Assembly (NCBI RefSeq): GCF_025464955.1
Contig: NZ_JAODNM010000080.1
Coordinates: 1 to 64,000, forward strand
Source: Amycolatopsis sp.
GTDB taxonomy: Bacteria; Actinomycetota; Actinomycetes; Mycobacteriales; Pseudonocardiaceae
Reading direction: 5' to 3'
Length of the DNA: 64,000 nucleotides
The notes below the pieces were generated by a model. It was given only the letters and a program-made list of their open reading frames with translations, was not told the DNA's origin and made no database searches. The stretch's first letter is position 1, and the number at the start of each line of letters is the position of its first letter. The position numbers were made by a program, and so were the translations under genes. Shown in pieces: positions 27,961 to 50,740 of this stretch.

Positions 27961-27975
27961 TGGAACTCCGTTTCA
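27961..27975 (-). promoter_or_regulatory. KstR-like operator, leftward copy (before MFS transporter)
   Basis: TGGAACTCCGTTTCA, which read in reverse is TGAAAC-GGA-GTTCCA, one base off the consensus TGAAAC-N3-(G/A)TTCTA. It lies 177 bp before the MFS start and 84 bp (about eight helical turns) from the rightward copy at 28045, in opposite orientation. Confidence 0.6.
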
Positions 27976-28030
27976 TGGCGAGTCCGTCAAGAGCACGTTT
28001 CCAGCAGGCTAACACGGGCGTCGCCAGCAG

Positions 28031-28059
28031 TGGACAAAAACTTCTGAAACCTTATTCTA
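28031..28059 (+). promoter_or_regulatory. Promoter with embedded KstR-like operator (collapsed cluster copy)
   Basis: Operator TGAAAC-CTT-ATTCTA at 28045-28059 overlaps a promoter-like pair, TGGACA (28031-28036) and TATTCT (28053-28058), 16-bp spacer. The arrangement matches the promoter before the intact DUF35 operon at 38379-38408. It drives the relic ORF and TetR paralog A. Confidence 0.65.
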
Positions 28060-28188
28060 GTTGAGTAAGCTGCGACACGGGTCAAGCCGGTCTTCGTCCG
28101 CCACCTCGGGCACGGGCTCACTCTGCCGCGGCATGAGCAGGACCGGCGAGTCTGGCGTGGACCGCGGTTGTCATCCTTGGAGCACAGC

Positions 28189-28332
28189 GTGGGTCGAATG
28201 CCGATTGTCGACTACCTCGTCCTTGACGAGCGTGCGGACTGCCGGGCCTGGTACTTCGACCGGCGCACCGCCTGCAGCGGGACGGTCCTCAGCCGCGTCG
28301 TCCACGACACACTCCGAGTCGGTGTCGCCTGA
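28189..28332 (+). pseudogene. DUF35/OB-fold protein, internally deleted 47-residue relic
   Basis: From GGAGCACAGCGTG onward the DNA matches the intact DUF35 gene at 38511 (start RMPIVDYLVLDE, later WYFDRRTAC versus RYFDRRNAC). Pieces in between are missing and the Zn-ribbon CxxC pairs are gone. The frame is still open from GTG 28189 with a good ribosome site to a TGA at 28332, one base before an ATG in frame with TetR A, so it could now act as a short leader peptide. The genes that follow in the intact cluster (thiolase, ligase) are absent. Confidence 0.75.
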
Positions 28333-28345
28333 TATGATCGCTCCC

Positions 28346-29002
28346 GTGACAGACGCTGATTCGCAGGTCCCGCTGCCTGTCGGGATGATGACGAGTCGTC
28401 AGCTCGCCCGTCGGGCACGGCTCATCGAGACCGTGATCGCGCTTGTCGCCGAATCCGGTACGACCTCGATTCAGATGCGTGACGTGACTGATCGGTCCGG
28501 GGTGGCGCTGGGCACCGTTTACCGGTACTTCCGGTCGAAGGACCATCTTCTGGCCGCCGCGTTCGCTGAGTGGCAGGGCAAACTCACGCGCCGAATCGTG
28601 TCTTCGCGGCGCGATGAGAACGAGGATTCGCTGCCGTTGGTGAGGGACTTTCTGCGCCGCGTCCTGCAGGCATTCGATCGTGCTCCCGGCATGGCCGTGC
28701 TCATGATGCAGATGACGGCTTCGTCCGATCCGGATGTGCAGCAGCTCATCGAGCAGGGTAGCAGCGGCTTTGACGTCGCGTTCGATCACTTGCTCGCGGC
28801 GGAACCCCGCGATGACGTCTCCTACATCCGACTCGCGATCGGTTGTGTTCTGGTGGACGCGGTCAACCGTATGTCCAATGGACGGGCCACCTTCCAGGAA
28901 ACGCTGCCCCAGGTCGAAGGCGTCGCCGACATCCTGTTGAGCACGCGTGGCCGGCGGTCCGCTTCGTCGCGCAAGAGTCGCTCGCAGCGGACTCCGGCCT
29001 GA
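28346..29002 (+). CDS. TetR-family regulator, KstR-like, paralog A
   Basis: A 218-residue TetR protein. The recognition part IQMRDVTDRSGVALGTVYRY then FRSKDHLLAAA resembles KstR-type regulators of steroid/lipid catabolism, which also carry the QMRxV-VGTLYRYF pattern. The C-terminal domain includes MAVLMMQMTASSDPDVQQL. The paralog at 41772-42428 is closely similar throughout. Start GTG 28346 matches that of the paralog; ATG 28334 is also in frame. It lies inside the collapsed cluster copy, with KstR-like palindromes on both sides (28045 and 29100), and is a likely binder of them. Ligand probably a CoA ester, by analogy with KstR. Confidence 0.9.
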   Translation: MTDADSQVPLPVGMMTSRQLARRARLIETVIALVAESGTTSIQMRDVTDRSGVALGTVYRYFRSKDHLLAAAFAEWQGKLTRRIVSSRRDENEDSLPLVRDFLRRVLQAFDRAPGMAVLMMQMTASSDPDVQQLIEQGSSGFDVAFDHLLAAEPRDDVSYIRLAIGCVLVDAVNRMSNGRATFQETLPQVEGVADILLSTRGRRSASSRKSRSQRTPA

Positions 29003-29025
29003 TCCGGGCCGAGCCCCACTGTCGG

Positions 29026-29040
29026 TAGAAGCCTGTTTCT
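29026..29040 (-). promoter_or_regulatory. Decayed KstR-like operator
   Basis: TAGAAGCCTGTTTCT, two mismatches from the reverse consensus TAGAAC-N3-GTTTCA. It is 74 bp from the rightward copy at 29100, the same distance and orientation as the 42519/42593 pair beside paralog B. Confidence 0.45.
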
Positions 29041-29089
29041 CCTTGCGCTCGAGCGCGCCCCGCATACCCATGTCGCGCTGATGTTACTG

Positions 29090-29118
29090 TTGCGAATTGT
29101 GAAACCGCGTTCTAGACT
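29090..29118 (+). promoter_or_regulatory. Promoter with embedded KstR-like operator (former P450 promoter)
   Basis: TTGCGA (29090-29095), 17-bp spacer, TAGACT (29113-29118), with operator TGAAAC-CGC-GTTCTA at 29100-29114 in the spacer. It is the counterpart of the intact P450 promoter at 42583-42611. Today it drives the Gfo/Idh gene at 29337, after passing the P450 relic. Confidence 0.7.
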
Positions 29119-29171: not shown

Positions 29172-29250
29172 AACGTCCACGGGGAGGCGTGCTTCTGGGC
29201 GTTAACGCCGGCCGGGGACATCAGCTTCGTCAGTCACGCATCCACGTGAA
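29172..29250 (+). pseudogene. Cytochrome P450 fragment
   Basis: GTCCACGGGGAGGCGTGCTT followed by CTGGGCGTTAACGCCGGCCG matches 42926-42990 inside the intact P450 (GTCCATGGAGAGGCGGGCTT...). The translated piece HGEACFWALTPAGDISFVSH matches HGEAGFWALTLAEDITFASR of the P450. Everything before and after is lost. It places a former P450 gene directly after this promoter, as in the intact cluster. Confidence 0.8.
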
Positions 29251-29336: not shown

Positions 29337-30344
29337 ATGAGCGACCAGGTATTCCGGTGGGGAATCTCCAGCCCCGGCGCCATCGCCGTGGAGTTCGCCC
29401 GCTCGATTCGCACCGCGCCCTTGGCCGAGGTAGTCGCTGTGGGCTCCCGTGACCTCGGCCGCGCAAAGGTGTTCGCCGACGAGCATGGCATCGGCTCGGC
29501 TTTCGGTTCGCTGGAGGACCTGGCCGCGTCGCCCGACGTTGACGGCGTGTACGTCTGTTCACCCGTGTATGCGCACGCCGCCGCGGTCGACGTCATTGCC
29601 GCAGCGGGGAAAGCGATTCTCATCGAGAAGCCGTTCGCGACCTCCGCAGCGGCCGCCGCGGCGATGTTCGCGACCGCGAAACGGCACAACGTCTTCCTCA
29701 TGGAAGCGATGTGGACCCGGTTCCTCCCCGCCTGGCAACAGATCCGGGGCTTGGTCGACGGAGGTCGAATCGGCGAGGTCCGCGCTGCCTCGGCCAACTT
29801 CGGTTTCCCGCTACTCGGGGGAGCGCGTGACGACTTTCTCCTCGATCCGGCGAAGGGTGGCGGAAGTCTCCTGGAGATCGGTGTCTACCCTGTCCAGCTG
29901 CTCCAGGACTATTTCGGAACGCCAACCCGGGTCGAAGCCGCCGTCATCGAGTCCGAGACGGGAGTCGACCTCAGCGTCGCGGCAGCCCTGACCTTCGGTG
30001 ACAAAATCGCGTCCTTGCAGTCGTCCATCACGCAGATGCTGCCGAGCTCGGCAACTATCAGCGGCAGTTTTGGAATCATCCATGTGCCAGCGTTCTTCCA
30101 TGCGGCTCGCCGCTTTGAAATCCACACCCTGGACGGCGACGCCGCCCATCCCTTCTCGGTCGAGCTGGTCGACGCCGAACCGGCTATCAGCCCGCTCGCC
30201 TACCAAGCCATCCATGTCGCCGAGCGAATCGCCCAAGGCGAGGTCGACAGCGATGTCATGAGCCCAGGCGACACCGTCGCGACTCTGCGCATCATCGAAG
30301 CCATTCTCGAGTCCGCAGGTTCGCGAAAGACTTCGGATTCCTGA
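29337..30344 (+). CDS. Gfo/Idh/MocA-family oxidoreductase
   Basis: A 335-residue NAD(P)-dependent oxidoreductase acting on sugars, inositols or related cyclic diols. The N-terminal Rossmann domain starts VFRWGISSPGAIAVEFARSI. The lysine motif ILIEKPFATS is near residue 100 (EKP signature), and LMEAMWTRFLPAW is common in the dihydrodiol dehydrogenase/glucose-fructose oxidoreductase-like subgroup. The C-terminal domain begins about residue 130. GAGAGG lies 9 bases before the ATG. It now lies behind a former P450 promoter carrying a KstR-like operator, and leads a rightward group with an SGNH hydrolase, a second broken Gfo/Idh gene and a beta-propeller protein. Confidence 0.9.
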   Translation: MSDQVFRWGISSPGAIAVEFARSIRTAPLAEVVAVGSRDLGRAKVFADEHGIGSAFGSLEDLAASPDVDGVYVCSPVYAHAAAVDVIAAAGKAILIEKPFATSAAAAAAMFATAKRHNVFLMEAMWTRFLPAWQQIRGLVDGGRIGEVRAASANFGFPLLGGARDDFLLDPAKGGGSLLEIGVYPVQLLQDYFGTPTRVEAAVIESETGVDLSVAAALTFGDKIASLQSSITQMLPSSATISGSFGIIHVPAFFHAARRFEIHTLDGDAAHPFSVELVDAEPAISPLAYQAIHVAERIAQGEVDSDVMSPGDTVATLRIIEAILESAGSRKTSDS

Positions 30345-38307: not shown

Positions 38308-38322
38308 TAGAACACAGTTTCA
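38308..38322 (-). promoter_or_regulatory. KstR-like operator, leftward copy
   Basis: TAGAACACAGTTTCA, exact reverse of TGAAAC-N3-GTTCTA. It lies 86 bp (about eight turns) from the rightward operator at 38394 with opposite orientation, just after the TetR stop, with no leftward gene to serve. A looping partner is more likely than a second promoter. Confidence 0.7.
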
Positions 38323-38378: not shown

Positions 38379-38408
38379 TGGACGGCAGCAACATGAAACG
38401 CTATTCTA
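38379..38408 (+). promoter_or_regulatory. Promoter with embedded KstR-like operator for the DUF35-thiolase-ligase operon
   Basis: TGGACG (38379-38384), 17-bp spacer, TATTCT (38402-38407). The operator TGAAAC-GCT-ATTCTA covers 38394-38408, so a bound repressor would block RNA polymerase directly. About 100 bp of leader separates it from the DUF35 start. Confidence 0.75.
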
Positions 38409-38510
38409 ATTCGGGACAGGGTCACGACCCGGGCGAGCCGACCGTCATCCGCCACCCCGGGCACTGAATCACTCCGCCGCGGACCGCGGTTGTCATCCTT
38501 GGAGCACAGC

Positions 38511-38915
38511 GTGGATCGAATGCCGATTGTCGACTATCTCGTCCTGGACGAGCCTCCGCGCCTGGTAGCGCACGAGTGCATGGCCTGTCAGGCCCGGTAC
38601 TTCGATCGGCGCAACGCCTGCGCCGCCTGCGGCGGGACGGAGTTCACCCGAGCCGATGTCGAACGCGACGCGACGCTGCGTTCCTTCACGATCGTCAACG
38701 TCGCGGCCGAAGGTGTCCCGGTGCCCTACGTCGCCGCGATCGTGGACTGTGCCGGGACCACTGTCCCGGGGCTGCTCGTCAACACGCCGCCTGATCCCGT
38801 CCACGTACGTCTCGGGATGAAGCTCCGGCTCACCACCTTTTCGATCGGCGCCGACGCGTCCGGTGTGGACGCCGTCAACTACGGCTTCGAACCGGCAGCG
38901 GAGGGGGAGCGATGA
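38511..38915 (+). CDS. DUF35 / OB-fold Zn-ribbon protein, thiolase partner
   Basis: A 134-residue stand-alone DUF35 protein. The N-terminal rubredoxin-like Zn ribbon has Cys23, Cys26, Cys37 and Cys40 (HECMACQARYFDRR, ACAACGG), followed by an OB-fold (LRSFTIVNVA, PYVAAIVDCAGTT). Such proteins pair with SCP2-type thiolases; in steroid side-chain breakdown the DUF35 domain of ChsH2 binds the thiolase-like aldolase Ltp2. GTG 38511 has GGAG 7 bases upstream. Its stop overlaps the start of the next gene (ATGA), so the two are translated in step and probably form a complex. A decayed copy lies at 28.2 kb. Confidence 0.9.
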   Translation: MDRMPIVDYLVLDEPPRLVAHECMACQARYFDRRNACAACGGTEFTRADVERDATLRSFTIVNVAAEGVPVPYVAAIVDCAGTTVPGLLVNTPPDPVHVRLGMKLRLTTFSIGADASGVDAVNYGFEPAAEGER

Positions 38916-40114
38916 CCGAGGATGTCTGGATTCTCGGAATCCACATGACGAAGTTCGGCAAGCACCGCGACAAGGACACCATCGACCTGGCCTCCGAAGC
39001 CGTGTTCGGGGCTTTGGCCGACGGCGGCGTCGGCATCGACGACATCGGCGTCCTGGGAGCCGGCAATCTCCTCGGCGGCCCCACGCCGTTCGGGCAGAAC
39101 CTGCAGAAGCAGATCGGGCAGACCGGTGTTCCGGTGTACAACGTGGCCAACGCGTGTGCGACCGGCGCGACGGCCCTGCGCGTCGCGATCATGGCCGTCA
39201 AGGCCGGCGAGACGGACATGGGGCTCGCGGTCGGCGTGGAGAAGCTGTCGGGGATGGGGTTGCTCACCGGCGATGTGGCAACGCAGACCGAACAGCAGTG
39301 GCGTCCGCAGGGTCGCTTCGGAGCCATCACGTCTCTGGAAGGCCGCGTCAGGACGGACACCATGCCGGGGGTGTTCGCGCAGATCGGCATGGAGTACGCG
39401 AGCCGCTATGACGGCGTCGACTTCGAACTGTTCGCCCGTATCGCGGAGAAGAACCATGCTCACTCGACGTTGAACCCGCTGGCCGCCTATCAGAAGCGGT
39501 TCTCGCTCGACGAGATCATGAACGATATCATGATCGCCTACCCGAACACCCGGCCGATGTGCTCGGCCAACTGCGACGGTGCTGCCGCGGCGGTGGTCGT
39601 GAGTGAGAGCAAGCTCCGGACGCTCTCGCCGGAACAACGGCGTCGTGCGGTCAAGATCAGTGCCTCGGTGCTGACCAGCGATCCTTGGCAGGAAGGATGC
39701 CAGGTCCTGCCGGACGTCAGCACGCTCACCCGGCTCGCGGCCGACCAGGCCTACGAACGTGCCGGTGTGTCGCCCGACGACCTCGATCTGGTCGAACTGC
39801 ACGACTGCTTCGCGACGGCGGAGCTGGTGCACTACGAGAATCTGTCTCTCTGTGAGCCGGGAGGGGCCGTCGACCTGTTCGAGTCGGGCGAGACCTGGCG
39901 CGACGGCCGCATCCCGGTGAACGTCTCGGGTGGGCTCGAGTCCAAGGGGCACCCGGTCTCGGCGACCGGCATCGCCAATATCTGGGAAGTGGCGACCCAC
40001 CTGCGGGGCGAAGCCGGTCCCCGGCAGATCGAGGGAGCCAGGGTGGGGCTGGCCCATGTCGTCGGGATCGGCCAGGCGTCCGCGGTGCACATCCTGGAGA
40101 AGTCCGCCGGCTGA
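38912..40114 (+). CDS. SCP2-type thiolase / lipid-transfer-protein-like aldolase
   Basis: A 400-residue thiolase-fold protein of the SCP-x/Ltp type. The active-site cysteine is Cys82 in NVANACATGATAL. The usual NEAF motif is replaced by ELHDCFA, and SKGHPVSATG follows near residue 350, both marks of the SCP2-thiolase group. With the co-translated DUF35 protein it could be a thiolase for branched or ring-bearing 3-ketoacyl-CoA, or a retro-aldolase as in Ltp2. The conserved cysteine favours thiolytic cleavage. ATG overlaps the preceding stop. The ligase follows after 32 bp. Confidence 0.92.
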   Translation: MTEDVWILGIHMTKFGKHRDKDTIDLASEAVFGALADGGVGIDDIGVLGAGNLLGGPTPFGQNLQKQIGQTGVPVYNVANACATGATALRVAIMAVKAGETDMGLAVGVEKLSGMGLLTGDVATQTEQQWRPQGRFGAITSLEGRVRTDTMPGVFAQIGMEYASRYDGVDFELFARIAEKNHAHSTLNPLAAYQKRFSLDEIMNDIMIAYPNTRPMCSANCDGAAAAVVVSESKLRTLSPEQRRRAVKISASVLTSDPWQEGCQVLPDVSTLTRLAADQAYERAGVSPDDLDLVELHDCFATAELVHYENLSLCEPGGAVDLFESGETWRDGRIPVNVSGGLESKGHPVSATGIANIWEVATHLRGEAGPRQIEGARVGLAHVVGIGQASAVHILEKSAG

Positions 40115-40146
40115 ACCACCGTCCGGAAAGCATGAGGAGAACCACA

Positions 40147-41730
40147 TTGTCTGCCGATGTCACTTCGCCGGTCGGTGCCTACGCGGTCGGCGCGAGGTAC
40201 CCGGACCGGATCGCGATTGTCGCCCCCGACGGTGGGACGACGTCGTTCGGACAGCTTCTCGAGCGCGGCAACAGGCTGTCGAACGCGCTGCGCGCACTGG
40301 GGCTGGGTGACGGGGACGTCGTGGCGTTCCTGTTGGGGAACGAACCGTCGTTCTTCGAGGTCGCGCTCGGCGTGGAGCAGGTCGGGATGTATCGGGTGCC
40401 GATCAACACCCACTCGACCCCAGCCGAGGTCGCCTACATCGTGCGGGACTCGGGCGCGCGCGTGCTCGTCGCGTCGCACGATCTCGCGGCGGTCCTCGGT
40501 CCGGTGCTCGACGACCTCGGCGCGCACCGGATCGCGATCGGCGGAGCGGTAGCGGGCTGGCACGACTACGACGCCTGGCTCGCCGCGGCCGATGCCGGGG
40601 TTCCAGCGGACCGCAGGGCGGGCGCGGCCATGGGCTACACCTCCGGCACCACCGGACGGCCCAAGGGCGTTCGCCGCCCGCTGGCGGGAATCCCGCCGGA
40701 GGGGCTGCTGTCGGTGATGCTGGACGTCGTGCTGAGCCCGTTCGGCTTCCGTCCGCTCGACGGCGTCCACCTGGTCGTCGCACCGCTGTATCACGCCGCG
40801 CCCAACACCTTCGCGGTCGGCGCGCTGCACCTCGGCCACACCGTGGTCGTCCAACCCCGCTTCGACGCCGAAGCGTTCTTGACCACGGTGGCGGAGCGCC
40901 AGGTCACCAGCACTCACCTGGTGCCGACCCACTTCCACCGTCTCCTCGAACTGCCGAAGGAAGTGCGTGCCGCAGCCGACCTGAGCAGCCTGGAGATCGT
41001 GGTGGCCGCCGGCGCGCCGTTCCCGCCGAAGATGAAGGCACGAGCACTCGGCTGGCTCGGGCCGGTGATCTGGGAGTACCTCGCTTCGACCGAAGGACTC
41101 GTGAGTGTCATTTCCCCCACGGAGGCCTTGGCGCACCCCGGTTCGGTCGGACGGCCCACCGACGTCAGGATTCTCGATGACGAGGGCGATCCGGTCGTGC
41201 CCGGCGACGAGGGCCTGATCTACTTTCCGGCCGGACAGCCGCCGTTCGCCTATCACAATGACCCCGGCAAGACCGCTGCCACCGTCCGTGCCGACGGGTA
41301 CGCCACGGCCGGCGATCTCGGCCGTATCGGTGAGGGTGGATATCTGTACCTGCTCGACCGGCGTGTCGATCTCATCATCACCGGCGGGGTCAATGTCTAC
41401 CCGGCGGAGATCGAACAGCGCCTTGTCGAACACCCGATGGTCGAGGACGTGGCCGTAGTCGGACTGCCCGACGCCGAATGGGGGCAGCAGGTCGTCGCCG
41501 TGGTCAAGCTCGCCGACGGGGAACACGGCCACGAGCAGGTGTCCGGCGAACTCGACGCCTACTGCCGCGCGTCGCTGACCCGGGCCAAGTGTCCACGCCG
41601 TTACGAGTTCGTCGATACACTGCCACGTACGGAAACCGGGAAGCTGCTTCGCCGCGTCGTCCGTGACACCGTCCGATCGCCGAACGACCGACCGGACCCT
41701 TCCCGCGCCATGCCCGCGAACCACGGCTGA
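40147..41730 (+). CDS. Acyl-CoA synthetase (AMP-forming, FadD-like)
   Basis: About 527 residues of the adenylate-forming superfamily. The P-loop-like motif is MGYTSGTTGRPKGVRR; EYLASTEGLVSVISP is the substrate/adenine region, and YATAGDLGRIGEGGYLYLLD then RRVDLIITGGVNVYPAEIEQ and the C-terminal lysine in RTETGKLLRR are present. It activates a carboxylic acid to its CoA ester. TTG 40147 is preferred because AGGAG (40135-40139) is correctly spaced for it; the ATG at 40132 overlaps that site. It is the third gene of the DUF35-thiolase operon and supplies the CoA ester the rest of the cluster needs. Confidence 0.92.
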   Translation: MSADVTSPVGAYAVGARYPDRIAIVAPDGGTTSFGQLLERGNRLSNALRALGLGDGDVVAFLLGNEPSFFEVALGVEQVGMYRVPINTHSTPAEVAYIVRDSGARVLVASHDLAAVLGPVLDDLGAHRIAIGGAVAGWHDYDAWLAAADAGVPADRRAGAAMGYTSGTTGRPKGVRRPLAGIPPEGLLSVMLDVVLSPFGFRPLDGVHLVVAPLYHAAPNTFAVGALHLGHTVVVQPRFDAEAFLTTVAERQVTSTHLVPTHFHRLLELPKEVRAAADLSSLEIVVAAGAPFPPKMKARALGWLGPVIWEYLASTEGLVSVISPTEALAHPGSVGRPTDVRILDDEGDPVVPGDEGLIYFPAGQPPFAYHNDPGKTAATVRADGYATAGDLGRIGEGGYLYLLDRRVDLIITGGVNVYPAEIEQRLVEHPMVEDVAVVGLPDAEWGQQVVAVVKLADGEHGHEQVSGELDAYCRASLTRAKCPRRYEFVDTLPRTETGKLLRRVVRDTVRSPNDRPDPSRAMPANHG

Positions 41731-41771: not shown

Positions 41772-42428
41772 GTGGCAGACGCTGATTCGCAGGCCCCGCT
41801 GCCCGTCGGGTTGATGACGAGTAGTCAGCTCGCCCGCCGGGCCAGGCTCATCGAAACCGTGATTCAGCTGGTCGCCAAATCCGGCACTACTGCCATCCAG
41901 ATGCGTGACGTGACCGACCGGTCCGGGGTGGCACTGGGCACTGTTTACCGGTACTTCCGGTCGAAGGACCACCTCCTGGCCGCCGCGCTGACCGAGTGGC
42001 AGGGCAAACTCACCCGCCGAGTCCTCTCCTCGAACCGTGATGAGAACGAGGATTCGCTGCCGCTGGTGAAGGATTTTCTGCGCCGCGTCCTGCAGGCCTT
42101 CGATCGTGCCCCCGGGATGGCCGTGCTCATGATGCAGATGACGGCATCGTCGGATCCGGATGTGCAGCAGCTCACCGATCAGAGCGGCAGCGGCTTTGAC
42201 GCCGCGTTCGATCACCTGCTCGCAGCGGGGCCTCGCGATGACGTCTCCTACATTCGACTCGCGATCGGCTGTGTTCTGGTCGATGCGGTCAACCGTATGT
42301 CCAATGGACGGGCCACTTTCCAGGAAGTGCGGGGCCAGGTCGACGGTGTCGCCGACATCCTCTTGAGCACGCGTGCCCGGCGTTCCGGTTCTTCGCGTAA
42401 GGATCCCTCAGCACGCGCTTCGGCTTGA
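41772..42428 (+). CDS. TetR-family regulator, KstR-like, paralog B
   Basis: A 218-residue paralog of the regulator at 28.3-29.0 kb with the same recognition helix region (IQMRDVTDRSGVALGTVYRY, FRSKDHLLAAA). GTG 41772 corresponds to the start of paralog A; GTG 41751 is also in frame. It lies between the ligase operon and the P450 operon, is followed by a long hairpin (42428-42478), and both neighbouring promoters carry the TGAAAC-N3-GTTCTA palindrome. It is therefore the best candidate for the cluster's repressor. The KstR-like label comes from helix-turn-helix resemblance and operator style, not from a database match. Confidence 0.9.
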   Translation: MADADSQAPLPVGLMTSSQLARRARLIETVIQLVAKSGTTAIQMRDVTDRSGVALGTVYRYFRSKDHLLAAALTEWQGKLTRRVLSSNRDENEDSLPLVKDFLRRVLQAFDRAPGMAVLMMQMTASSDPDVQQLTDQSGSGFDAAFDHLLAAGPRDDVSYIRLAIGCVLVDAVNRMSNGRATFQEVRGQVDGVADILLSTRARRSGSSRKDPSARASA

Positions 42429-42518: not shown

Positions 42519-42533
42519 TAGAATTGCGTTTCG
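42519..42533 (-). promoter_or_regulatory. KstR-like operator, leftward copy near P450 promoter
   Basis: TAGAATTGCGTTTCG: in reverse it is one mismatch from TGAAAC-N3-ATTCTA. It is 74 bp (about seven turns) from the operator at 42593, in opposite orientation, the same geometry as the pair at 29026/29100. Confidence 0.6.
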
Positions 42534-42582: not shown

Positions 42583-42611
42583 TTGCCAAAGCTGAAACCG
42601 TGTTCTATATT
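42583..42611 (+). promoter_or_regulatory. P450 operon promoter with embedded KstR-like operator
   Basis: TTGCCA (42583-42588), exactly 17 bp, TATATT (42606-42611). Operator TGAAAC-CGT-GTTCTA at 42593-42607 fills the spacer. The same arrangement recurs at 29090. About 150 bp of leader precede the chosen P450 start. Confidence 0.8.
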
Positions 42612-42760
42612 GATACTGTCAGGTTAACTCCGGCGGGCACGATCCGGCCGGCGCTCGCGAAGAGTCGCCGAAGGTGAGCCGAGTGATCCGGACGAGCGCC
42701 TCGGCCGTCATGCCCGATCCGGGATCGAGTGGCTCGTCCGCTGTAGCCGAAAGAGCAAGT

Positions 42761-44041
42761 ATGAAACTGCATCGCACGCCGCATCCGTCCACTTGCGACA
42801 AGGACATCTCCAGCAAGGAGTTCTGGGCCAAGCCGTTCGACGAACGCGACGAGACGTTCCGGTGGCTTCGCGAGAACGCGCCGGTGAGCTGGCACCCGTC
42901 ACTCGAGGATCCGGCCTTGCCGGCGTCCGTCCATGGAGAGGCGGGCTTCTGGGCGTTGACGCTGGCCGAGGACATCACCTTCGCCAGCCGCAACCACGAG
43001 CAGTTCAGCTCCGAACTCGGTCTGCCGTATCTGCCGCCTCGTGCCGCGGGGGCACCGCTGATGGCTCCGTCGATTCTGGAGCTGGACCCGCCGCGGCACA
43101 CCGAGTACCGGAAGGTGCTTAGCTCGGCGTTCACACCGAAGGCGGTGGGGCTGCTCACGGAGAAGATCGAGCAGCGCGCCGAGCAGATCGTCGACCGTGT
43201 CGTGGGAGGGGGCGCGTTCGATTTCGTCGCCGAAGTGTCCTCGAAACTCCCGATGCTGACCGTCGCGGACCTCGTCGGCGTTCCGGCGGACAAGGTCACG
43301 TCGTTCGCGGAGGCGGGCAACAATCTCGCCGCGCTCGAGGATCCCGAAACCCTGAGCAAACTGCCCGCCGGCGTGACGCCGCACGAGTGGGCGAACCAGC
43401 AGGTCGCGTACCTGATGGAAACGGGGATCGAGCTTGCCGAGGCCCGGCGGGCGCACCCCGAGGACGACATCGTCACCAGGCTGGTCACGGCGGACGTCGG
43501 CGGGCGCAAGCTCGGCAACGAGGACATCGGCACCATGATGATCCTGTTGAGCGTCGCCGGAAACGACACGACCAAGCAGACAACCAGCCATACCGTGGTC
43601 AACCTGGCTCGGCATCCCGCGCAGCGGGAGTGGCTGATCGAGGACTTCGGCGGCCGGATCATGGGGTCGATCGAGGAGTTCGTGCGGCACGCGACGCCGG
43701 TCATGATGTTCGCGCGGACCGCCACCCGGGACACCGAGATCCGGGGGACCGAGATCACCGCGGGGGACAAGGTCGCGCTGCTCTACTGCTCGGGCAACCG
43801 GGACCCGACGGTGTTTCCCGACCCGGAGACCTTCGACCTGACCCGGCGGGCGTTCGGGCACGTCGGGTTCGGTGGCGGTGGCGTGCACTTCTGCCTGGGC
43901 AACGGTGTGGCGAAGGCGCAGCTGCGCGCGCTGTTCCGCCAGATCCTCACCAAGCTTCCCCACCTCGATGTCGGCGAGCCGGAGCTACTGAGCGGCGGGG
44001 GCATGAACGGCATCAAGCGCCTGCCGGTAACGGTCAGCTGA
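42761..44041 (+). CDS. Cytochrome P450
   Basis: A 426-residue bacterial P450. The I-helix oxygen-binding motif is AGNDTTKQ, the K-helix ExxR is EEFVR, and the haem loop FGGGGVHFCLGNGVAKAQ places the cysteine ligand at residue 378. It resembles the actinobacterial CYP families (CYP125/142/124-like) that hydroxylate a terminal methyl of steroid or terpenoid side chains. That resemblance is a judgement from context and general motifs. Start ATG 42761 fits family length; the frame is open further upstream to 42674. It heads an operon with its own ferredoxin, reductase, alcohol and aldehyde dehydrogenases. A decayed fragment of a sister copy lies at 29.2 kb. Confidence 0.95.
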   Translation: MKLHRTPHPSTCDKDISSKEFWAKPFDERDETFRWLRENAPVSWHPSLEDPALPASVHGEAGFWALTLAEDITFASRNHEQFSSELGLPYLPPRAAGAPLMAPSILELDPPRHTEYRKVLSSAFTPKAVGLLTEKIEQRAEQIVDRVVGGGAFDFVAEVSSKLPMLTVADLVGVPADKVTSFAEAGNNLAALEDPETLSKLPAGVTPHEWANQQVAYLMETGIELAEARRAHPEDDIVTRLVTADVGGRKLGNEDIGTMMILLSVAGNDTTKQTTSHTVVNLARHPAQREWLIEDFGGRIMGSIEEFVRHATPVMMFARTATRDTEIRGTEITAGDKVALLYCSGNRDPTVFPDPETFDLTRRAFGHVGFGGGGVHFCLGNGVAKAQLRALFRQILTKLPHLDVGEPELLSGGGMNGIKRLPVTVS

Positions 44042-44104
44042 CTAAGAGCCGCTAACACTACAACTGCTCGGCTCGCAACACGCAATCTGCGGTGTTGTCG
44101 TCGT

Positions 44105-44127
44105 CCCCGGTACAACAGAGGTACCGG
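44105..44127 (+). other. Intergenic hairpin between P450 and ferredoxin
   Basis: CCCGGTAC-AACAGAG-GTACCGGG, perfect 8-bp stem with 7-nt loop, in the 175-bp gap. No T-run follows, so partial termination, RNA processing or mRNA stabilisation to set the P450:ferredoxin ratio is possible. Confidence 0.5.
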
Positions 44128-44216
44128 GAACTCCTCCGCTTTGCATCTCACGCACCTGGACGCCCGCTCCCAGATCGAGCGCCACCGTATTAGCAGCTCT
44201 ACTGACAGGACAGATC

Positions 44217-44420
44217 ATGGAGATTCACGTCGACCGTGCGCGGTGCACAGGCATCGGGATGTGCGAGTCCGTCACTCCCGACTACTTCGAAGTGTTTGAC
44301 GACGGGACCCTTGTCCTGCATCGCGTCGACGTGCCCGAGCAGGACGTCGCGCTGATCGAGGACGCCGTGCGGGCGTGTCCGGCGGGCGCGCTGTCGCTGG
44401 AGAGCGGGCATGAGGTCTAA
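44217..44420 (+). CDS. 3Fe-4S ferredoxin
   Basis: A 67-residue ferredoxin with Cys10, Cys16 and Cys54 (RCTGIGMCES, ACPAGAL). The position between Cys10 and Cys16 that holds a cysteine in 4Fe-4S types is absent, so a 3Fe-4S cluster is expected, as in the ferredoxins that serve actinobacterial P450s. It lies 175 bp after the P450 and runs without gap into the ferredoxin reductase (TAA directly followed by GTG). It carries electrons from that reductase to the P450. Confidence 0.95.
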   Translation: MEIHVDRARCTGIGMCESVTPDYFEVFDDGTLVLHRVDVPEQDVALIEDAVRACPAGALSLESGHEV

Positions 44421-45686
44421 GTGGACGGATCGAAGGCGGGACTGGTCGTCGTCGGGGCGTCACTCGCGGGCCTGCGGGCGGTGGAGTCGGCGCGACGCGT
44501 GGGTTATCGCGGTCCGATCACGCTGATCGGAGAAGAGGTGCACGCCCCTTACGACCGCCCGCCGTTGTCCAAACAGTTTCTGGTGGACAAGCGAAACCCG
44601 GTACCGCTGTGTACCGAAGGGGAACTCCGCGAACGACTCGGCGTGCGACTCCTGTTGGGCTACAAGGCGGCCGGACTGGATCCGGACTCGCGCCTCGTGC
44701 GGCTCGATGACGGGTACCGGGTGCCTTACCACCGTGCGGTCATCGCGACCGGCGCGAAGGCACGAGGGCTGAACGGGTCGGGTGGGTTGGCCGGCGTGCA
44801 CACCCTGCGCACGGTGGAGGACGCTTCGACCATCCGCGAGGCGCTGACTCTGGGGGCGCGAGTCGTAGTCGTCGGTGCGGGATTCATCGGCGCGGAGATC
44901 GCATCGTCGGCGGTGTCCGTCGGCGCGACGGTGACCATCGTGGAGGCCGCGCTGGCACCACTGGTGCGGGCCGTGGGTGAAGTCGTGGGGACCGAACTGG
45001 CCAGGTTGCACGACCTGGCTGGTGTCCGTGTGGTGCTCGGCGCGCGCATCACCGAGCTGCTGGGGACGACACGCGTCACCGGGGTCCGCCTCGCCGACGG
45101 GCAAGGCGTCCCGGCCGACGTAGTGGTCGCCGGCATCGGCGCGGTTCCGGCTACCGAGTGGCTGAGCGGGTCAGGCGTCGTGCTCGATCCCGTCGGCGGC
45201 GGGATCGTCTGCGACGAGTTCCTGCGCACGTCGGTCGCGGGCGTCTACGCCGCCGGTGACGTGGCGTCCTGGCCGAACGCGATCATGGACCGGCGGATGC
45301 GGATGGAGAACTGGACCGGCGCCGCCGAACAGGGGGCGCGGGCGGCGATCAACGCGCTGTTCCCCGACCGTGCCAAGGCTTTCGAGACGGTTCCGTACTT
45401 CTGGAGCGACTGGTATGGCAGCCGCATCCAGTTCGCGGGCACCGCACTCGCCGAGCGGGCGGAGATCGTGACCGGTGATGTCGAGCACGCCCAGTTCGTC
45501 GCCCTCTACAGCACGGGTGGCCGCGTTGTCGGCGCGGCAACGCTCAACCGGCCGGCGAAGATCATGAAGCTGCGTCGGTTGATCGAGCGACGATCAAGCG
45601 TCGATGACGCCGTCCAGCTGCTTGAGCGGTCGCCCACCGCCGGAGTACCGGAACCTGCAGCAGGAAGAGCCCAATCATGCCCCTGA
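44421..45686 (+). CDS. Ferredoxin reductase, FAD-dependent (NAD(P)H)
   Basis: A 421-residue flavoprotein of the putidaredoxin-reductase/BphA4 type. The FAD motif is VVVGASLAGLRAVESAR, APYDRPPLSKQFL follows, the NAD(P) motif is VVVVGAGFIGAEIASSA near residue 145, the FAD-ribityl motif is VYAAGDVASWP, and the C-terminal domain has VPYFWSDWYGSRIQF. It passes electrons from NAD(P)H to the ferredoxin encoded immediately upstream. GTG directly follows the ferredoxin stop, and its own end overlaps the alcohol dehydrogenase start by 10 bp, so translation is coupled across the three genes. Confidence 0.95.
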   Translation: MDGSKAGLVVVGASLAGLRAVESARRVGYRGPITLIGEEVHAPYDRPPLSKQFLVDKRNPVPLCTEGELRERLGVRLLLGYKAAGLDPDSRLVRLDDGYRVPYHRAVIATGAKARGLNGSGGLAGVHTLRTVEDASTIREALTLGARVVVVGAGFIGAEIASSAVSVGATVTIVEAALAPLVRAVGEVVGTELARLHDLAGVRVVLGARITELLGTTRVTGVRLADGQGVPADVVVAGIGAVPATEWLSGSGVVLDPVGGGIVCDEFLRTSVAGVYAAGDVASWPNAIMDRRMRMENWTGAAEQGARAAINALFPDRAKAFETVPYFWSDWYGSRIQFAGTALAERAEIVTGDVEHAQFVALYSTGGRVVGAATLNRPAKIMKLRRLIERRSSVDDAVQLLERSPTAGVPEPAAGRAQSCP

Positions 45687-46777
45687 CCACCAAGGCCGCA
45701 GTCCTGCGCGCCGCCGATGGCCCGTTCGTCATCGAGGACGTAGTCCTCGACCCGCTGGGGCCTGAGGACCTGCTCGTGCGCATCGCGGGGACGGGCATGT
45801 GCCACACCGACCTGGTGGCCCGCGACCCTGCCTTTGCGGCCGCTCTGCTGCCCGCCGTACTCGGCCACGAAGGCTCCGGCGTCGTGACGGCGGTGGGAGG
45901 CGAGGTCACGGACTTCGAAGTCGGCGATCACGTGGTGATGTCGTTCGACTCGTGCGGCGGCTGCGGGTTGTGTCGAGGCGGTGACCCCGCCTATTGCGAG
46001 AATTTCCTGGCGAGCAATCTCTCCGGCCGGCGGCGGGACGGTCGCCCCGGGGCGACGGGAAGCGACGGTGCTACTGTCAACAGCCGGTGGTTCGCCCAGT
46101 CGTCGTACGCGGGGTTCGCCGTCGCGACCCGGCGCAACGCCGTCAAGGTCGATCCGGCCCTGCCGTTGGAGCTGCTGGGGCCGCTCGGGTGCGGCTTGCA
46201 GACCGGTGCCGGTGTCGTGTTCAACGAGATGAACCTGCGGCCGGGCCAGAGCGTCGCCGTGTTCGGTGCGGGCACCGTGGGGCTTGCGGCCGTGATGGCC
46301 GCGAAGATCGCGGGCGCGACGGACATCGTCGTGGTCGACACACATCCGGGCCGTCTGGAGATGGCGGTGGAGCTCGGCGCGACCCGCGTCTATCCGGGCA
46401 GCCTGGAGCTCGTCACCCGGATCCTGGGTGGTGAACCCGGCGTGGACCACACCTTGGACACCACCTCCGTGCCCGCGGTCATGGCTGCGGCGGTTCAGGT
46501 TCTCGCCCCCCGCGGCGGCGCGGTCCTGGTGGGTGGGGGAGCGGGGGCGTTGACGATCCGTCCACCCCAGCTCGCCGGGCGGCGCCTCACCTACGTGCTG
46601 GAAGGAAGTGCGGTCCCGCAGGAGTTCATTCCGATCCTGCTCGGGCATTGGCGGGACGGCAGGTTCCCGTTCGACCGGCTTATCCGCACGTACCCGCTCT
46701 CGGAGATCAATCAGGCCGAAGCCGATTCGCTGTCCGGAGTGACGATCAAACCCGTCCTGATCCCGGAAAGCGTCTGA
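45677..46777 (+). CDS. Zinc alcohol dehydrogenase (aryl/class III-like, MDR)
   Basis: A 366-residue zinc-dependent alcohol dehydrogenase. The catalytic-zinc cysteine is in GTGMCHTDL, GHEGSGVVTAVG holds the zinc histidine, the structural-zinc cysteines are in CGGCGLCRGGDPAYC, and the Rossmann motif is VFGAGTVGLAAVMAA. The pattern is that of aryl-alcohol or long-chain alcohol dehydrogenases with NAD. Its start lies inside the reductase gene (10-bp overlap). It would oxidise the primary alcohol made by the P450 to the aldehyde, and the aldehyde dehydrogenase 31 bp downstream would finish to the acid. Confidence 0.93.
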   Translation: MPLTTKAAVLRAADGPFVIEDVVLDPLGPEDLLVRIAGTGMCHTDLVARDPAFAAALLPAVLGHEGSGVVTAVGGEVTDFEVGDHVVMSFDSCGGCGLCRGGDPAYCENFLASNLSGRRRDGRPGATGSDGATVNSRWFAQSSYAGFAVATRRNAVKVDPALPLELLGPLGCGLQTGAGVVFNEMNLRPGQSVAVFGAGTVGLAAVMAAKIAGATDIVVVDTHPGRLEMAVELGATRVYPGSLELVTRILGGEPGVDHTLDTTSVPAVMAAAVQVLAPRGGAVLVGGGAGALTIRPPQLAGRRLTYVLEGSAVPQEFIPILLGHWRDGRFPFDRLIRTYPLSEINQAEADSLSGVTIKPVLIPESV

Positions 46778-46808
46778 CTGTCGTGCCGCGACGATTGGAA
46801 GGCAGCTG

Positions 46809-48257
46809 ATGACCAGGCAGAGTACGACCAGGCAGGGCACTGAGCCGACACCCGCGACGGCCGACGGCGTCGACCTGTCTACAGCGGACAAGTTCGGAAT
46901 CGTGAATCCTGCCACCGGCCGGGTGTTCGCGCACGCGCCGGCGGTCGGGGTCGACCAGCTCGACCACGTGTTCAGCACCGCGCAACGCGCTTACGACAGT
47001 TGGCAGGACGACGAACCCGCGCGGCGCGCAGCGCTACGCGCCGCCGCGGACCGTCTCGACTCGGCTGCCGACGAACTTGCCCCCCTGCTCACTGCCGAAC
47101 AGGGTAAACCGCTCCTCCACGCGCGAGACGAGATCACGAGATCCGCGCTGTGGTTACGGTACTTCGCCGACCTCGAGGTGCCTCGGGAAATCGTCCGCGA
47201 CGACGCCGAGGCGTACCAGGAGGTCGTCCGCAGGCCGCTCGGTGTGGTCGTCGCGATCACCCCGTGGAACTTCCCGATCATGCTCGCCTTCTGGAAGATC
47301 GCCCCGGCACTGCGCGCGGGCAACACCGTGGTGGTCAAGCCTTCGCCCTATACGCCGCTCACCATGCTCGCCGTGGGCAAGCTGCTCCGCGAGGTGCTGC
47401 CGGCGGGGGTCCTGAGCGTGATCAGCGGCCCGGAGCCCCTCGGCGCGGCGGCGGTGGCACACCGCATCCCCCGCAAGGTGAGCTTCACGGGCTCCACCGT
47501 CGTCGGCCGCCAGGTCGGAATCGCCGCGGCCGCCGACTTCAAGCGCGTCACGCTGGAGCTCGGCGGCAACGACCCGGCGATCCTCCTCGACGACGTCGAC
47601 GTCGACCGAATCGCACCATCCCTGTTCTGGAGCGCGTTCGTGAACAGCGGCCAGGTATGCCTCGGCGCCAAGCGCATCTACGTCCACCACTCGATCCATG
47701 CCAGGGTGGTCGAAGCGATGGCGGCACTCGCCGGCACGGTCGTGGTGGGCGACGGCGCGATGCCCGGCGCCCAGTTCGGTCCACTGAACAACCTTCCCCA
47801 GTTCGAGCGGGTCAAGGAGTTGGTCGGCGACGCGGTCCACCACGGGGCGGCGGTCGCGGCCGGCGGCGCACCGCTCGACCGCGACGGGTACTTCTACCCA
47901 CCCACCGTGCTGTCCGCCGTGACTGACGGCATTCGCGTCGTGGACGAGGAACAGTTCGGTCCGGTCATGCCCATCGTCGCCTTCGACGACGAAGCCGACG
48001 TAGTGCGGCGCGCCAACGCCAGCGCGTACGGCCTTACGGCGTCAGTGTGGTCGGCGGACCCCGAACGCGCCTACGCCCTCGCGGCCGAAGTCGACAGCGG
48101 CCAGGTCAGCGTCAACGTCCACGGTGGCGGGATCATGCCCACCTTGCCTTTCGGCGGCCACAAGGACAGCGGCATCGGCGTCGAGAACGGCCCGTGGGGC
48201 CTCGCGTCGTACACCGATATCCAAGTCATCGCCGGACCCCCACGCAACCCGTCCTGA
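46809..48257 (+). CDS. Aldehyde dehydrogenase (NAD(P)-dependent)
   Basis: A 482-residue aldehyde dehydrogenase. [33 protein letters not shown] (cofactor), TLELGGNDP with the catalytic glutamate, and [14 protein letters not shown] with the nucleophile cysteine are all present, as is the [11 protein letters not shown] motif. It converts the aldehyde to a carboxylic acid, the substrate type for the acyl-CoA synthetase at 40.1 kb. It follows the alcohol dehydrogenase by 31 bp in the P450 operon, with GH3 next. Confidence 0.95.
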
Positions 48258-48289
48258 CCATGACAGCCACCGATGACGCTGGAGCCACC

Positions 48290-50455
48290 ATGACTGACCC
48301 TGTCTGCCCTCCCGGCACCGCCTTCGCCTACGTCGTCGACGCTGTCCGTGTCGGCGGCGACATCGCGACCGCCGTGGCGCGCCTGGTCAATCGCCTGACC
48401 GACGACGAGCTGCTGTGGCTGCTCGACGGGGATCGCACTGTGCTTGCCGGGCTCCGCGGGATCACCTCGGGGTACAACATGGTGGCCGTCGAGGCGGGCC
48501 GGGTCGACCGCCTCGGGATCCCCGGGATCCGGTTCACCGACGGACCACGGGGGGTGGTCATGGGCAGCTCGACCTCGTTCCCCGCCTCGATCGCCCGCGC
48601 CGCCGCGTGGGACACCGGCCTCGAACGCGCCATCGGCGACGCCATCGGGACCGAGGCCCGTGCCCTGGGCGCCAACCTGTTCGCCGGTATCTGCGTCAAC
48701 CTCGCCTACGCCCCTGGCTGGGGTCGCAGCCAGGAGTCCTACGGGGAGGACCCGGTCCTGATCGGCGCCATGGGCGCCGCCATGACCGAGGGAGTCAACC
48801 CCTGGGTGATGTCGTGTGTGAAGCACTTCGCGCTGAACTCCATGGAGGAGGCCCGTTTCTCCGTCGACGTCCAGGTCGCCGACGACGTACTGCACGAGGT
48901 CTACCTGCCCCACTTCCGCACGGTCGTGGCGGCCGGCGCGGACTGCGTGATGAGCGCGTACAACTCCGTCAACGGGGTCTGGGCAGGGGAGAACCGCCAC
49001 CTGCTCACCGAGGTGCTACGCGACGACTGGGGCTTCGGCGGGTTCGTGATGTCTGACTTCCTGTTCGGCCTGCGTAGCCCGATCGAGTCCGTCGCCGCGG
49101 GCCAGGACCTGGAGATGCCGCTGCGCCAGCAGCGCGCCCGCGTCCTTCCCGCCGCACTGGCCGACGGCCGCCTGGCCCGCGCCGATGTGCGGACCGCCGC
49201 CACCCGGATCCTCACCGCCCAAGTCCGCCTCGCCCTTCGCGCCCGGCCCACGCCCGCCGCGGACGTCGTGGCTTCCGCCGCGCACCGCGAGCTGGCTCGT
49301 GACGCCGCCCGCCGAGGGGTGGTGCTGCTGCGCAACGAGCAGGCGGACGGAGCCGCTGTCCTGCCGTTCTCCGTCGAGACTCTGGGGCGCCTCGCCGTCG
49401 TCGGGCGGCTGGCCGAGCAGCCCAATCTCGGGGATGCGGGGTCTTCGAAGGTCCGCCCACCGTCCACCAGCAGTGTCCTGGCCGGTCTCCGCGAACGTCT
49501 CGGGAACCGCGTCGTGCACGGCCGGGACCTCGCCGCCGCCACGGCGGCTGCCCGTACCGCCGATGCCGCGGTGGTCGTTGTCGGCCTCTCGTCGGTCGAC
49601 GAGGGCGAGGCCATGGCCGAGGTCGACCCCCAGGTGCTCCGGAGGCTGGGTGGGATCACCCGGGTCCCCGGCGTCGCCTGGCTGCTGAGCAAAGTCGTGG
49701 CTGCCGGTGACCGCAGCAAGAAGACCGGCGGGGACCGGCGCGACCTGCGCCTGCACGCCGATGATGTCGCACTGGTCCAGGCCGTGGCCGCGGTCAACCC
49801 GCGAACCGTCGTCGTGGTGATCGCCGGCGGCGCCGTCGTGCTGGATCCGTGGGAGGACGAGGTCGCCGGGATCCTGCTGGCCTGGTATCCCGGCATGGAA
49901 GGTGGGCGGGCGATCGCCGACCTGCTGCTCGGTGAAGCCGAACCCGGTGGGCGACTGCCGGTCGCCATCCCCCGTCGTCGCGAAGATCTCCCAGTCGTGG
50001 ACTGGAGCGCCCGCACGGTGGCCTACGGGCGCTGGTGGGGGCAGCGCAAGCTCGACCGGGACGGCACGACCGCGGCGTACCCGTTCGGCTTCGGCTTGGG
50101 CTACACCACGTTCACGCTCGCGGATCTGCGCGTCGGGCCGGTCGAGGGCGAACGGTTCACCGCGACCGTGTCGGTGACCAACACGGGTCCGCGCACCGGC
50201 CGCCACGTCGTCCAGATCTACGCCCACCTGCCCGAGCAGGAACGGATTGTGCGGGCGCTGATCGGTTTCCAGGCTGTACCCGACGTAGCGTCCGACGAGA
50301 GCCGGACCGTGACTGTGGACTGCACCACCCGGCCGCTGCAACGCTGGGCGCACGACGGCTTCACGATCGACCATCTCACCACCGTGCCGGTCGAGGCAGC
50401 GTCCTGGTCCGGAGATCCGTCAGCGGCTGCGGGTGTGTTCAGAACGGGGCCGTGA
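48290..50455 (+). CDS. GH3 glycoside hydrolase
   Basis: About 721 residues of family GH3: FTDGPRGVVMG, WGRSQESYGEDPVLIG, VKHFALNSMEEARF, nucleophile Asp in FVMSDFLFG, then the second domain and a short fibronectin-like C-terminus (VSVTNTGPRTGRHVVQIYAH). ATG 48290 has GGAG 5 bases upstream; ATG 48260 is an alternative. No signal peptide. It is the last gene of the P450 operon, 32 bp after the aldehyde dehydrogenase, and is a distinct paralog from the GH3 at 35-37.5 kb. Its presence implies that the compound degraded by the cluster arrives as a glycoside. Confidence 0.93.
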   Translation: MTDPVCPPGTAFAYVVDAVRVGGDIATAVARLVNRLTDDELLWLLDGDRTVLAGLRGITSGYNMVAVEAGRVDRLGIPGIRFTDGPRGVVMGSSTSFPASIARAAAWDTGLERAIGDAIGTEARALGANLFAGICVNLAYAPGWGRSQESYGEDPVLIGAMGAAMTEGVNPWVMSCVKHFALNSMEEARFSVDVQVADDVLHEVYLPHFRTVVAAGADCVMSAYNSVNGVWAGENRHLLTEVLRDDWGFGGFVMSDFLFGLRSPIESVAAGQDLEMPLRQQRARVLPAALADGRLARADVRTAATRILTAQVRLALRARPTPAADVVASAAHRELARDAARRGVVLLRNEQADGAAVLPFSVETLGRLAVVGRLAEQPNLGDAGSSKVRPPSTSSVLAGLRERLGNRVVHGRDLAAATAAARTADAAVVVVGLSSVDEGEAMAEVDPQVLRRLGGITRVPGVAWLLSKVVAAGDRSKKTGGDRRDLRLHADDVALVQAVAAVNPRTVVVVIAGGAVVLDPWEDEVAGILLAWYPGMEGGRAIADLLLGEAEPGGRLPVAIPRRREDLPVVDWSARTVAYGRWWGQRKLDRDGTTAAYPFGFGLGYTTFTLADLRVGPVEGERFTATVSVTNTGPRTGRHVVQIYAHLPEQERIVRALIGFQAVPDVASDESRTVTVDCTTRPLQRWAHDGFTIDHLTTVPVEAASWSGDPSAAAGVFRTGP

Positions 50456-50686
50456 GGTCATACCTGGAATTGTTAGAACGGCGCTCTCTGATCTTAGCCG
50501 TGGGCCTTGCTAGGAAAGGCGCTTTCGTCGCGGTGACTGCAAGGAACGTCCCTTTCGCCCGGCCGAGCGTGTCCGCCGCTTGCTACCGCGTGTCCGCGCT
50601 CTGGGTACGGCGTGCACAACCCGCCCGCTGCCTTGCGTGTCACCGAAGACCCACGGATGCGACCGGAGAGCCACAAAATGGCATCC

Positions 50687-50715
50687 TTGACACCGGTGAA
50701 ACGTCGTTCTAACGT
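50687..50715 (+). promoter_or_regulatory. Promoter P1 with KstR-like operator (amidohydrolase operon)
   Basis: Consensus -35 TTGACA (50687-50692), 17-bp spacer, TAACGT (50710-50715), with operator TGAAAC-GTC-GTTCTA at 50697-50711 in the spacer. The 230 bp before it, after the GH3 stop, hold no gene; a lone half-site TAGAAC occurs at about 50473. Confidence 0.75.
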
Positions 50716-50721
50716 CAGAGG

Positions 50722-50740
50722 TGAAACCAGGTTCTATTTT
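50722..50740 (+). promoter_or_regulatory. Second KstR-like operator (amidohydrolase operon)
   Basis: TGAAAC-CAG-GTTCTA at 50722-50736, same orientation and 25 bp downstream of the first, overlapping TATTTT (50735-50740), a possible second -10. Two tandem sites suggest tighter repression of the long downstream operon. Confidence 0.7.

Follow-up and report, generated by a model that had tools for sequence, protein, structure and literature searches.

A 15-bp inverted repeat in a catabolic gene cluster of Amycolatopsis sp. as the probable operator of two KstR-like TetR regulators

The first 64,000 nucleotides of contig NZ_JAODNM010000080.1 of Amycolatopsis sp. (assembly GCF_025464955.1; this whole stretch is called the window below) contain a catabolic gene cluster, apparently for a lipid- or terpenoid-like compound, in which a 15-bp sequence, TGAAACNNNRTTCTA, returns again and again between the genes. 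The sequence resembles the operator of KstR (Rv3574), the repressor of cholesterol catabolism, and the window encodes two KstR-like regulators of the TetR family, TetR1 and its duplicate TetR2. This raises the question which protein the repeated sequence serves. We consider it very probable that TetR1 and TetR2, the repressors that belong to the cluster itself, use this 15-bp element as their operator, and we infer binding, repression, ligand and substrate from the sequences.

Occurrence of the 15-bp site and its regulators

The exact pattern was searched on both strands of the window, with 100 shuffles as control. Seven matches were obtained (28045, 29100, 38394, 42593, 50697, and 50722 on the plus strand, 38308 on the minus strand) versus a mean of 0.00 in the shuffles, and all seven coordinates are those of a preliminary description of the window. 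Allowing up to two mismatches led to 12 matches where 1.49 are expected. Three close variants on the minus strand, likewise claimed before, are real and carry one (27961), two (29026) and one mismatch (42519). None of these ten sites, the seven exact ones and the three variants, falls within a called gene of the window. The cluster at 38-61 kb has three operon starts, each of which bears sites (38308/38394; 42519/42593; 50697/50722), which supports the proposal of a shared operator that marks the operon starts of a local regulon. TetR2 at 28 kb is flanked by two more site pairs.

Equal abundance of the motif elsewhere in the genome had been named as the finding that would speak against this proposal. 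However, the 9.2-Mb assembly comprises eight exact matches, seven of them inside the window; the approximately 9.1 Mb outside contribute a single one (locus L001), which lies inside a called reading frame. With up to one mismatch, the assembly gave 17 matches versus four for the reversed pattern. Eight of the 17 lie outside the window, six of them (L001, L009, L012, L013, L016, and L017) within called reading frames on either strand and one (L011) between gene calls. At L010 on contig C55 of the same genome, a one-mismatch site (1501-1515) is found in an open frame just ahead of the helix-turn-helix (HTH) of another, distant KstR-like TetR, whose gene (~1548-2162, start unsure) adjoins an acyl-CoA dehydrogenase-like frame.

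A matrix was built from other organisms only. It comprises 54 sites, filtered from 75 sites with up to one mismatch that come from 56 loci and include 48 exact ones; the 75 contain no site whose flanks were truncated or whose core was repeated, and L098 and L099 were excluded from the matrix. The ten window sites occupy ranks 1-10 (26.1 to 15.4 bits), followed by the next match at 10.6 bits. Among 30 column-permuted matrices, none reached the level of the seven exact sites (at least 23.1 bits; best permuted score 18.6).

The motif also accompanies relatives of the regulator. TetR1 relatives (E <= 1e-22) were detected in 20 of 393 other genomes of the class, and the 21 loci from class genomes include ten with an exact site and 19 with a site of up to two mismatches (reversed pattern: one locus). 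A larger set of relatives consisted of the best 80 of 310 candidate stretches in named genomes, 33-82% identical and about 12 kb each. Here 43 loci have an exact site and 56 a site with up to one mismatch, versus 0 and 1 for the reversed control. In all 49 exact matches of these relatives the centre measures three bases, and spacers of 0-2 and 4-7 bases gave none; the looser half-site TRRAAC/GTTYYA occurs 49 times with spacing 3 (control 1), three times with spacing 2 (control 0) and with no other spacing. At 31 of the 80 loci an exact site was found either no more than 300 bp upstream of the TetR match or in its first 30 bp, and near the TetR starts of this set there are 34 sites with a three-base centre (N3) and no site with a two-base centre (N2). 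Furthermore, exact sites occur in every one of 20 genomes selected because they encode the TetR (40 matches; reversed control 5), versus four of 99 genomes of the family (11 matches, reversed control 12).

TetR1 and TetR2 are close paralogs, as had been proposed, with 86% identity at the amino-acid level and 87% over 671 bases. Both contain the TetR_N HTH (PF00440; 39 and 40 bits, cut-off 24), and Pfam TetR_C_20 scores 24.5 and 24.2 bits, just under its gathering cut-off of 26.5. Their closest solved chains are the TetR-family chain 3bjb and KstR chains (E about 1e-14). With the KstR profile NF033703, TetR1 and TetR2 reach 74.2 and 67.5 bits, far below the curated cut-off of 280, which the assembly's own KstR passes with 332.6. 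In a protein tree of 91 rows (L165, L168, and L169 were excluded as too short), the 11 KstR-family rows cluster together (support 100/98), with TetR1 and TetR2 outside this group. All 45 site-bearing rows, i.e., 43 loci and the two window TetRs, are found within one clade of 68 rows (95/81), which spans Mycobacteriaceae, Nocardiaceae, Frankiaceae, Thermomonosporaceae, Geodermatophilaceae, and Kribbellaceae. TetR1 and TetR2 are sisters, with Kribbella antibiotica and Streptomyces sp. SID13031 nearest to them (78 and 82% identity). The tree program warned of long branches, that of L010 above all. Judged from these comparisons, TetR1 and TetR2 belong to an actinobacterial clade beside KstR, close to it but not KstR itself. 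The 43 of 80 loci together with the tree tie the motif to this TetR clade.

Several observations weigh against this assignment. The exact site is absent from 37 of the 80 loci, and a site with up to one mismatch from 24. Of the 34 site-less rows of the tree, 23 stand within the 68-row clade, and the site label needs 13 changes on the tree; in many members of the clade the site has consequently been altered or is missing from the 12 kb around the gene. The 11 site-less rows outside include eight that form one Streptomycetaceae group. Among the 40 matches in the TetR-chosen genomes, only 14 are at most 20 kb away from the TetR, and these are spread over 12 of the 20 genomes. The 20 TetR-chosen genomes and the 99 genomes compared with them come from different families. 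Five of the 30 permuted matrices score at least 15.4 somewhere in the window, and the weak sites at 29026 (15.7) and 27961 (15.4) are therefore unsafe on score alone. The sites at 38308, 42519, and 29026 do not stand at any minus-strand gene start, and four of the ten window sites belong to a duplicate that is described below.

The motif matches in family genomes without the TetR (11 matches in four genomes versus 12 reversed) were set aside. Five loci derived from nine matches in the genomes G020 and G058 (L072, L073, L075, L076, and L077) all represent the arm of a repeated hairpin (GTGAGTGTGAAAC...) around position 1501; this hairpin occurs in two genomes of one genus and contains the motif by chance.

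KstR and the spacing of the half-sites

The first alternative is that a bona fide KstR binds the sites and that the cluster is part of an ordinary cholesterol regulon. KstR is a TetR-family repressor as well, and its operator is described as TAGAAC-N2-GTTCTA, 14 bp long, with TGAAAC among the half-sites and overlapping the -10 region (PMC1995591). The half-sites, TGAAAC included, are thus common to both systems, as would be the position next to the -10/-35 region, self-repression and a gene beside a fadE gene, which the same paper describes for KstR. Moreover, the recognition helices are nearly identical (VALGTVYRYF in TetR1 and TetR2, VALGTLYRYF in the KstR of the same assembly), and a KstR is present in this assembly. 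However, the candidate operator described here is longer in its centre by one base, as the preliminary description had noted. KstR genes over the profile cut-off were found in the assembly and in five relatives (G299, G327, G455, G527, and G577, with a listed contamination of 0 for all five). Within 3.5 kb around each of these six genes there is one N2 site and no N3 site, while the window contains no 14-bp N2 site. The N3 sites go with the other clade. In four mycobacterial genomes (g47), the strict N2 pattern TRRAACNNGTTCTA gave 24, 29, 30, and 31 matches (palindromes counted twice; reversed 0 to 6), whereas the N3 pattern TRRAACNNNGTTCTA gave one match each, the TetR's own site (reversed 0 to 1). 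These four N3 sites are one inherited site and not four events. The strict N2 pattern has eight matches in the Amycolatopsis assembly versus none reversed. We therefore regard regulation by KstR as very unlikely.

Our preferred reading, i.e., operators of TetR1 and TetR2, leads to a further idea. In five genomes other than Amycolatopsis sp., a bona fide KstR that has a 14-bp site occurs together with a TetR of the 15-bp clade. The chances are about even that KstR and the 15-bp clade are insulated from each other in one cell by nothing but the length of the operator centre (two versus three bases), across several actinobacterial families, and that the clade represents a regulon not yet named, whose basis would be an amidohydrolase-type oxygenase of two subunits together with a fused acyl-CoA dehydrogenase. 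Two results speak against the spacing idea: five lower-scoring KstR-family loci (L184, L185, L186, L188, and L189) lack sites of both kinds, N2 and N3, and the looser N2 pattern TRRAACNNGTTYYA occurs at seven places of the Amycolatopsis assembly versus six for its reversal. If the idea is true, spacer length alone would encode the insulation of two lipid-catabolic regulons. A clade beside the much-studied KstR would then let one examine, in a clean natural case, how cross-talk between TetR paralogs is avoided through half-site spacing and not through base contacts. The 15-bp operator can also be used to trace the regulon in further actinobacteria.

Two further regulators of the KstR name are among the closest known systems. 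KstR2 of mycobacteria is also a TetR repressor of a sterol-catabolic regulon, but the match of TetR1 to it is confined to the HTH (PDB KstR2, E about 1e-4). Its operator is AnCAAGnnCTTGnT, with other half-sites. KstR3 of Mycolicibacterium neoaurum, a TetR repressor too, is described with an operon of DUF35 and thiolase-like aldolase genes (PMC10398937) that, compared by description, is somewhat like the genes at 38.5-40.1 kb; the words motif, palindrom, and amidohydrolase are absent from the main text of that paper. In the open-licence literature on KstR-like regulators and operators we found no title on the clade or on a 15-bp site, nor anything relevant on DitZ, an absence of little weight there.

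Promoters and genes at the sites

A clear promoter of the form TTGNNN-17-TANNNT was recognized at three window sites (29100, 42593, and 50697), with TTG exactly 10 nt upstream of the site; the remaining window sites have no clear promoter. Thus the notion of an operator between the -35 and -10 elements holds for three cases, while the "at least five" of the preliminary description are too many. A consensus promoter scan of 37000-51500, a range that leaves out 29100, gave two promoter-like sites (0.7 expected), among them 42583 but not 50687. In the 75 sites of the relatives, TTG stands exactly 10 nt upstream in ten (other offsets: at most two), and in all ten TANNNT follows 17 nt on. On the opposite strand, a TTGAC-like hexamer at -11 or -10 accompanies 28 of the 75 sites, chiefly in mycobacteria (other offsets: at most three). 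After the filter to 54 less related sites, the TTG counts are 8 upstream and 19 on the opposite strand. This placement on both strands indicates that promoter spacers are the proper place of the 15-bp site, whichever way it points.

One might ask whether the motif is mainly a promoter element, recognized by an alternative sigma factor, and not an operator. The fixed TTG together with the TA of the site that opens TANNNT, in ten of the relatives' sites and at three in the window, would fit such a role. The TTG on the other strand in 28 of 75 sites, however, means that the site serves both directions; in addition, tandem sites are 13, 25, or 29 bp apart and the presence of the motif follows one TetR clade, which makes this alternative just as improbable as control by KstR. 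Least probable of all, by a little, is regulation of the sites by the neighbouring TetR3. Only 42 bp separate the end of its gene from the 38308 site (a point that also counts against TetR1 and TetR2), and a homologue is found beside the GH3 gene in L098. However, TetR3 aligns with TetR1 over the HTH only (31% over 70 residues) and has a homologue (E <= 1e-15) in L098 only among the 80 loci, whereas relatives of TetR1 are accompanied by the site in many families.

With TetR1 and TetR2 as the regulators, the following mechanism can be envisioned. The repressor dimer would read two KstR-type half-sites (TGAAAC and TAGAAC) whose distance exceeds that of KstR sites by one base. At the three window promoters the site fills the spacer between -35 and -10, so that bound repressor would exclude RNA polymerase; the remaining sites are located upstream of operon starts. 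A pathway intermediate, probably a CoA thioester of the substrate, would release the repressor, and this release would turn on the genes for uptake, deglycosylation, P450 oxidation, CoA activation, and beta-oxidation together.

The features are listed in Table 1. Homologues of AH2, the acyl-CoA dehydrogenase and AH1 were detected at 48, 47, and 32 of the 80 loci, respectively. All three occur together at 25 loci, every one of which has an exact site. Within 450 bp downstream of 41 of the 49 exact sites there is a homologue of AH2, AH1, TetR, or GH3, and for 24 sites both a TetR and an AH or dehydrogenase gene qualify as downstream neighbour. By homology, the conserved core of the regulon is the pair of PF04909 amidohydrolase-superfamily genes plus the fused acyl-CoA dehydrogenase gene, a set of core targets in which the clade differs from KstR. 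AH1 and AH2 score 82 and 79.8 bits against PF04909 (cut-off 26.4). This family includes dinuclear oxygenases such as AibH1H2 (PMC10811679), and AH1 and AH2 are neighbouring PF04909 genes, of which AH1 matches PtmU3 (E 2e-21) and DitZ (E 7e-17). In contrast, the closest solved chain to AH1 is a putative TIM-barrel hydrolase (4dzi, E 4e-94). It is a guess that AH1 and AH2 form a dinuclear oxygenase like PtmU3 or AibH1H2. Equally, we can only guess that a glycosylated terpenoid or steroid is broken down, a role to which the genes for the P450 and its ferredoxin system, the CoA ligase, the thiolase, GH3, and AtuA would be suited.

Table 1. Putative operator sites, promoter-like sequences and genes of the window
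Feature	Position	Strand	Remarks
Operator-like site TGAAACGGAGTTCCA, 1 mismatch	27961..27975	-	between MFS gene (-) and TetR2 region; weak, 15.4 bits
Candidate operator TGAAACCTTATTCTA, exact	28045..28059	+	duplicate's counterpart of the 38394 site
Decayed remnant	28073..28275	+	matches start region of OB-fold gene (38425-38621), gapped, 72-76% identity
TetR2, KstR-like regulator, 218 aa	28346..29002	+	86% identical to TetR1
Weak site AGAAACAGGCTTCTA, 2 mismatches	29026..29040	-	15.7 bits; inverted partner of 29100, 74 bp
Promoter-like TTGCGA-17-TAGACT	29090..29118	+	spacer holds exact candidate operator 29100-29114
84% identical stretch	29174..29246	+	matches 42928-42998 inside P450 gene; between duplicated promoter and GFO1
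GFO/IDH/MocA oxidoreductase (GFO1)	29337..30344	+	first gene behind duplicated promoter
TetR3, third TetR gene, TetR_N only	37610-38266		between GH3 gene and 38-kb sites
Candidate operator TGAAACTGTGTTCTA, exact	38308..38322	-	inverted partner of 38394, 86 bp
Candidate operator TGAAACGCTATTCTA, exact	38394..38408	+	ahead of OB-fold/thiolase/CoA-ligase/TetR1 genes
OB-fold ChsH2_C-like protein, thiolase (lipid-transfer type), acyl-CoA ligase	38490..41730	+	
TetR1, KstR-like regulator	41772..42428	+	alternative start 41751
Operator-like site CGAAACGCAATTCTA, 1 mismatch	42519..42533	-	19.2 bits; inverted partner of 42593, 74 bp
Promoter-like TTGCCA-17-TATATT	42583..42611	+	spacer holds exact candidate operator 42593-42607
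P450, ferredoxin, ferredoxin reductase, Zn-alcohol dehydrogenase, aldehyde dehydrogenase, GH3 glycosidase	42674..50455	+	
Promoter-like TTGACA-17-TAACGT	50687..50715	+	spacer holds exact candidate operator 50697-50711
Second candidate operator TGAAACCAGGTTCTA, exact	50722..50736	+	25 bp beyond 50697
AH1, PF04909 protein	50740..51966	+	predicted regulon core; start unsure
AH2, second PF04909 protein	51963..52820	+	predicted regulon core; 58-71% identity in relatives
Fused (double) acyl-CoA dehydrogenase	52909..55110	+	predicted regulon core; start approximate
Two short-chain dehydrogenases, enoyl-CoA hydratase, S15-type hydrolase, AtuA and AtuA ferredoxin-like domain	55049..60844	+	second dehydrogenase by eye

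Tandem 15-bp sites like those at 50697/50722 (25 bp) were also observed in L132 and L133 (13 bp apart) and in L142 (29 bp); they are possible cooperative double operators. DNA looping between the inverted pairs of the window (84, 74, 86, and 74 bp) was considered, but the pairs are too few for such a claim: two of the four are duplication counterparts and one extra case (75 bp, L098) was found. In L098, this inverted pair (6741 and 6816, one of them with two mismatches) stands ahead of the GH3 gene and resembles the 74-bp pairs of the window.

The duplicate at 28 kb and the origin of the contig

The preliminary description counted the TetR/MFS region at 28 kb as part of the regulon. Its sites are present, yet they are not independent, since the region is a decayed duplicate, a fact that had been missed. 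Besides TetR2 itself, the duplicated stretches before and behind it (Table 1) point to a segment of about 38.3-43.0 kb that, in the simplest reading, was copied and then lost the thiolase gene, the ligase gene and most of the P450 gene. The promoter of the former P450 copy would now precede the GFO/IDH/MocA oxidoreductase gene (28073-29336 region). The spacings of the inverted pairs agree between the copies (84 and 86; 74 and 74). The four sites at 28-29 kb thus arose by segmental duplication, either from those at 38.3 and 42.5 kb or from a source common to both sets, and the ten sites of the window amount to about six independent ones. In the 28-kb copy the plus-strand sites have kept the full consensus; their minus-strand partners deviate at one and two positions, and the alignment of the flanks is poor. 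This pattern fits selection on the plus-strand sites, if the small numbers are kept in mind. The duplicate suggests that promoter-operators may outlive enzyme genes and bring new genes under the same control. A short GFO/IDH/MocA frame at 31115-31525 (136 aa, C-terminal part only) has a 90% identical stretch beside the TetR gene of L098.

As to the origin of the contig (C179), the listed contamination of the assembly is 5.4%. TetR1 has no match at E <= 1e-40 in 296 other genomes of the family and none at E <= 1e-10 in the plasmid collection. AH2 exceeds 40% identity in none of 59 other genomes of the genus, and two reach 38 and 40%. By dinucleotide signature, six of eight window chunks are closer to two Kribbella-like loci, which carry related genes, than to a small pool of the genome's own loci. 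The contig may therefore be a transferred island or a foreign contig. Given the contamination, the scarcity of AH2 and the dinucleotides, the co-residence of KstR and the TetR in one cell rests on the five other genomes.

The catabolic region is flanked by transposase genes of the IS4-type and DDE_Tnp_1 (5430-6758 and 63129-63947), as in a mobile island.

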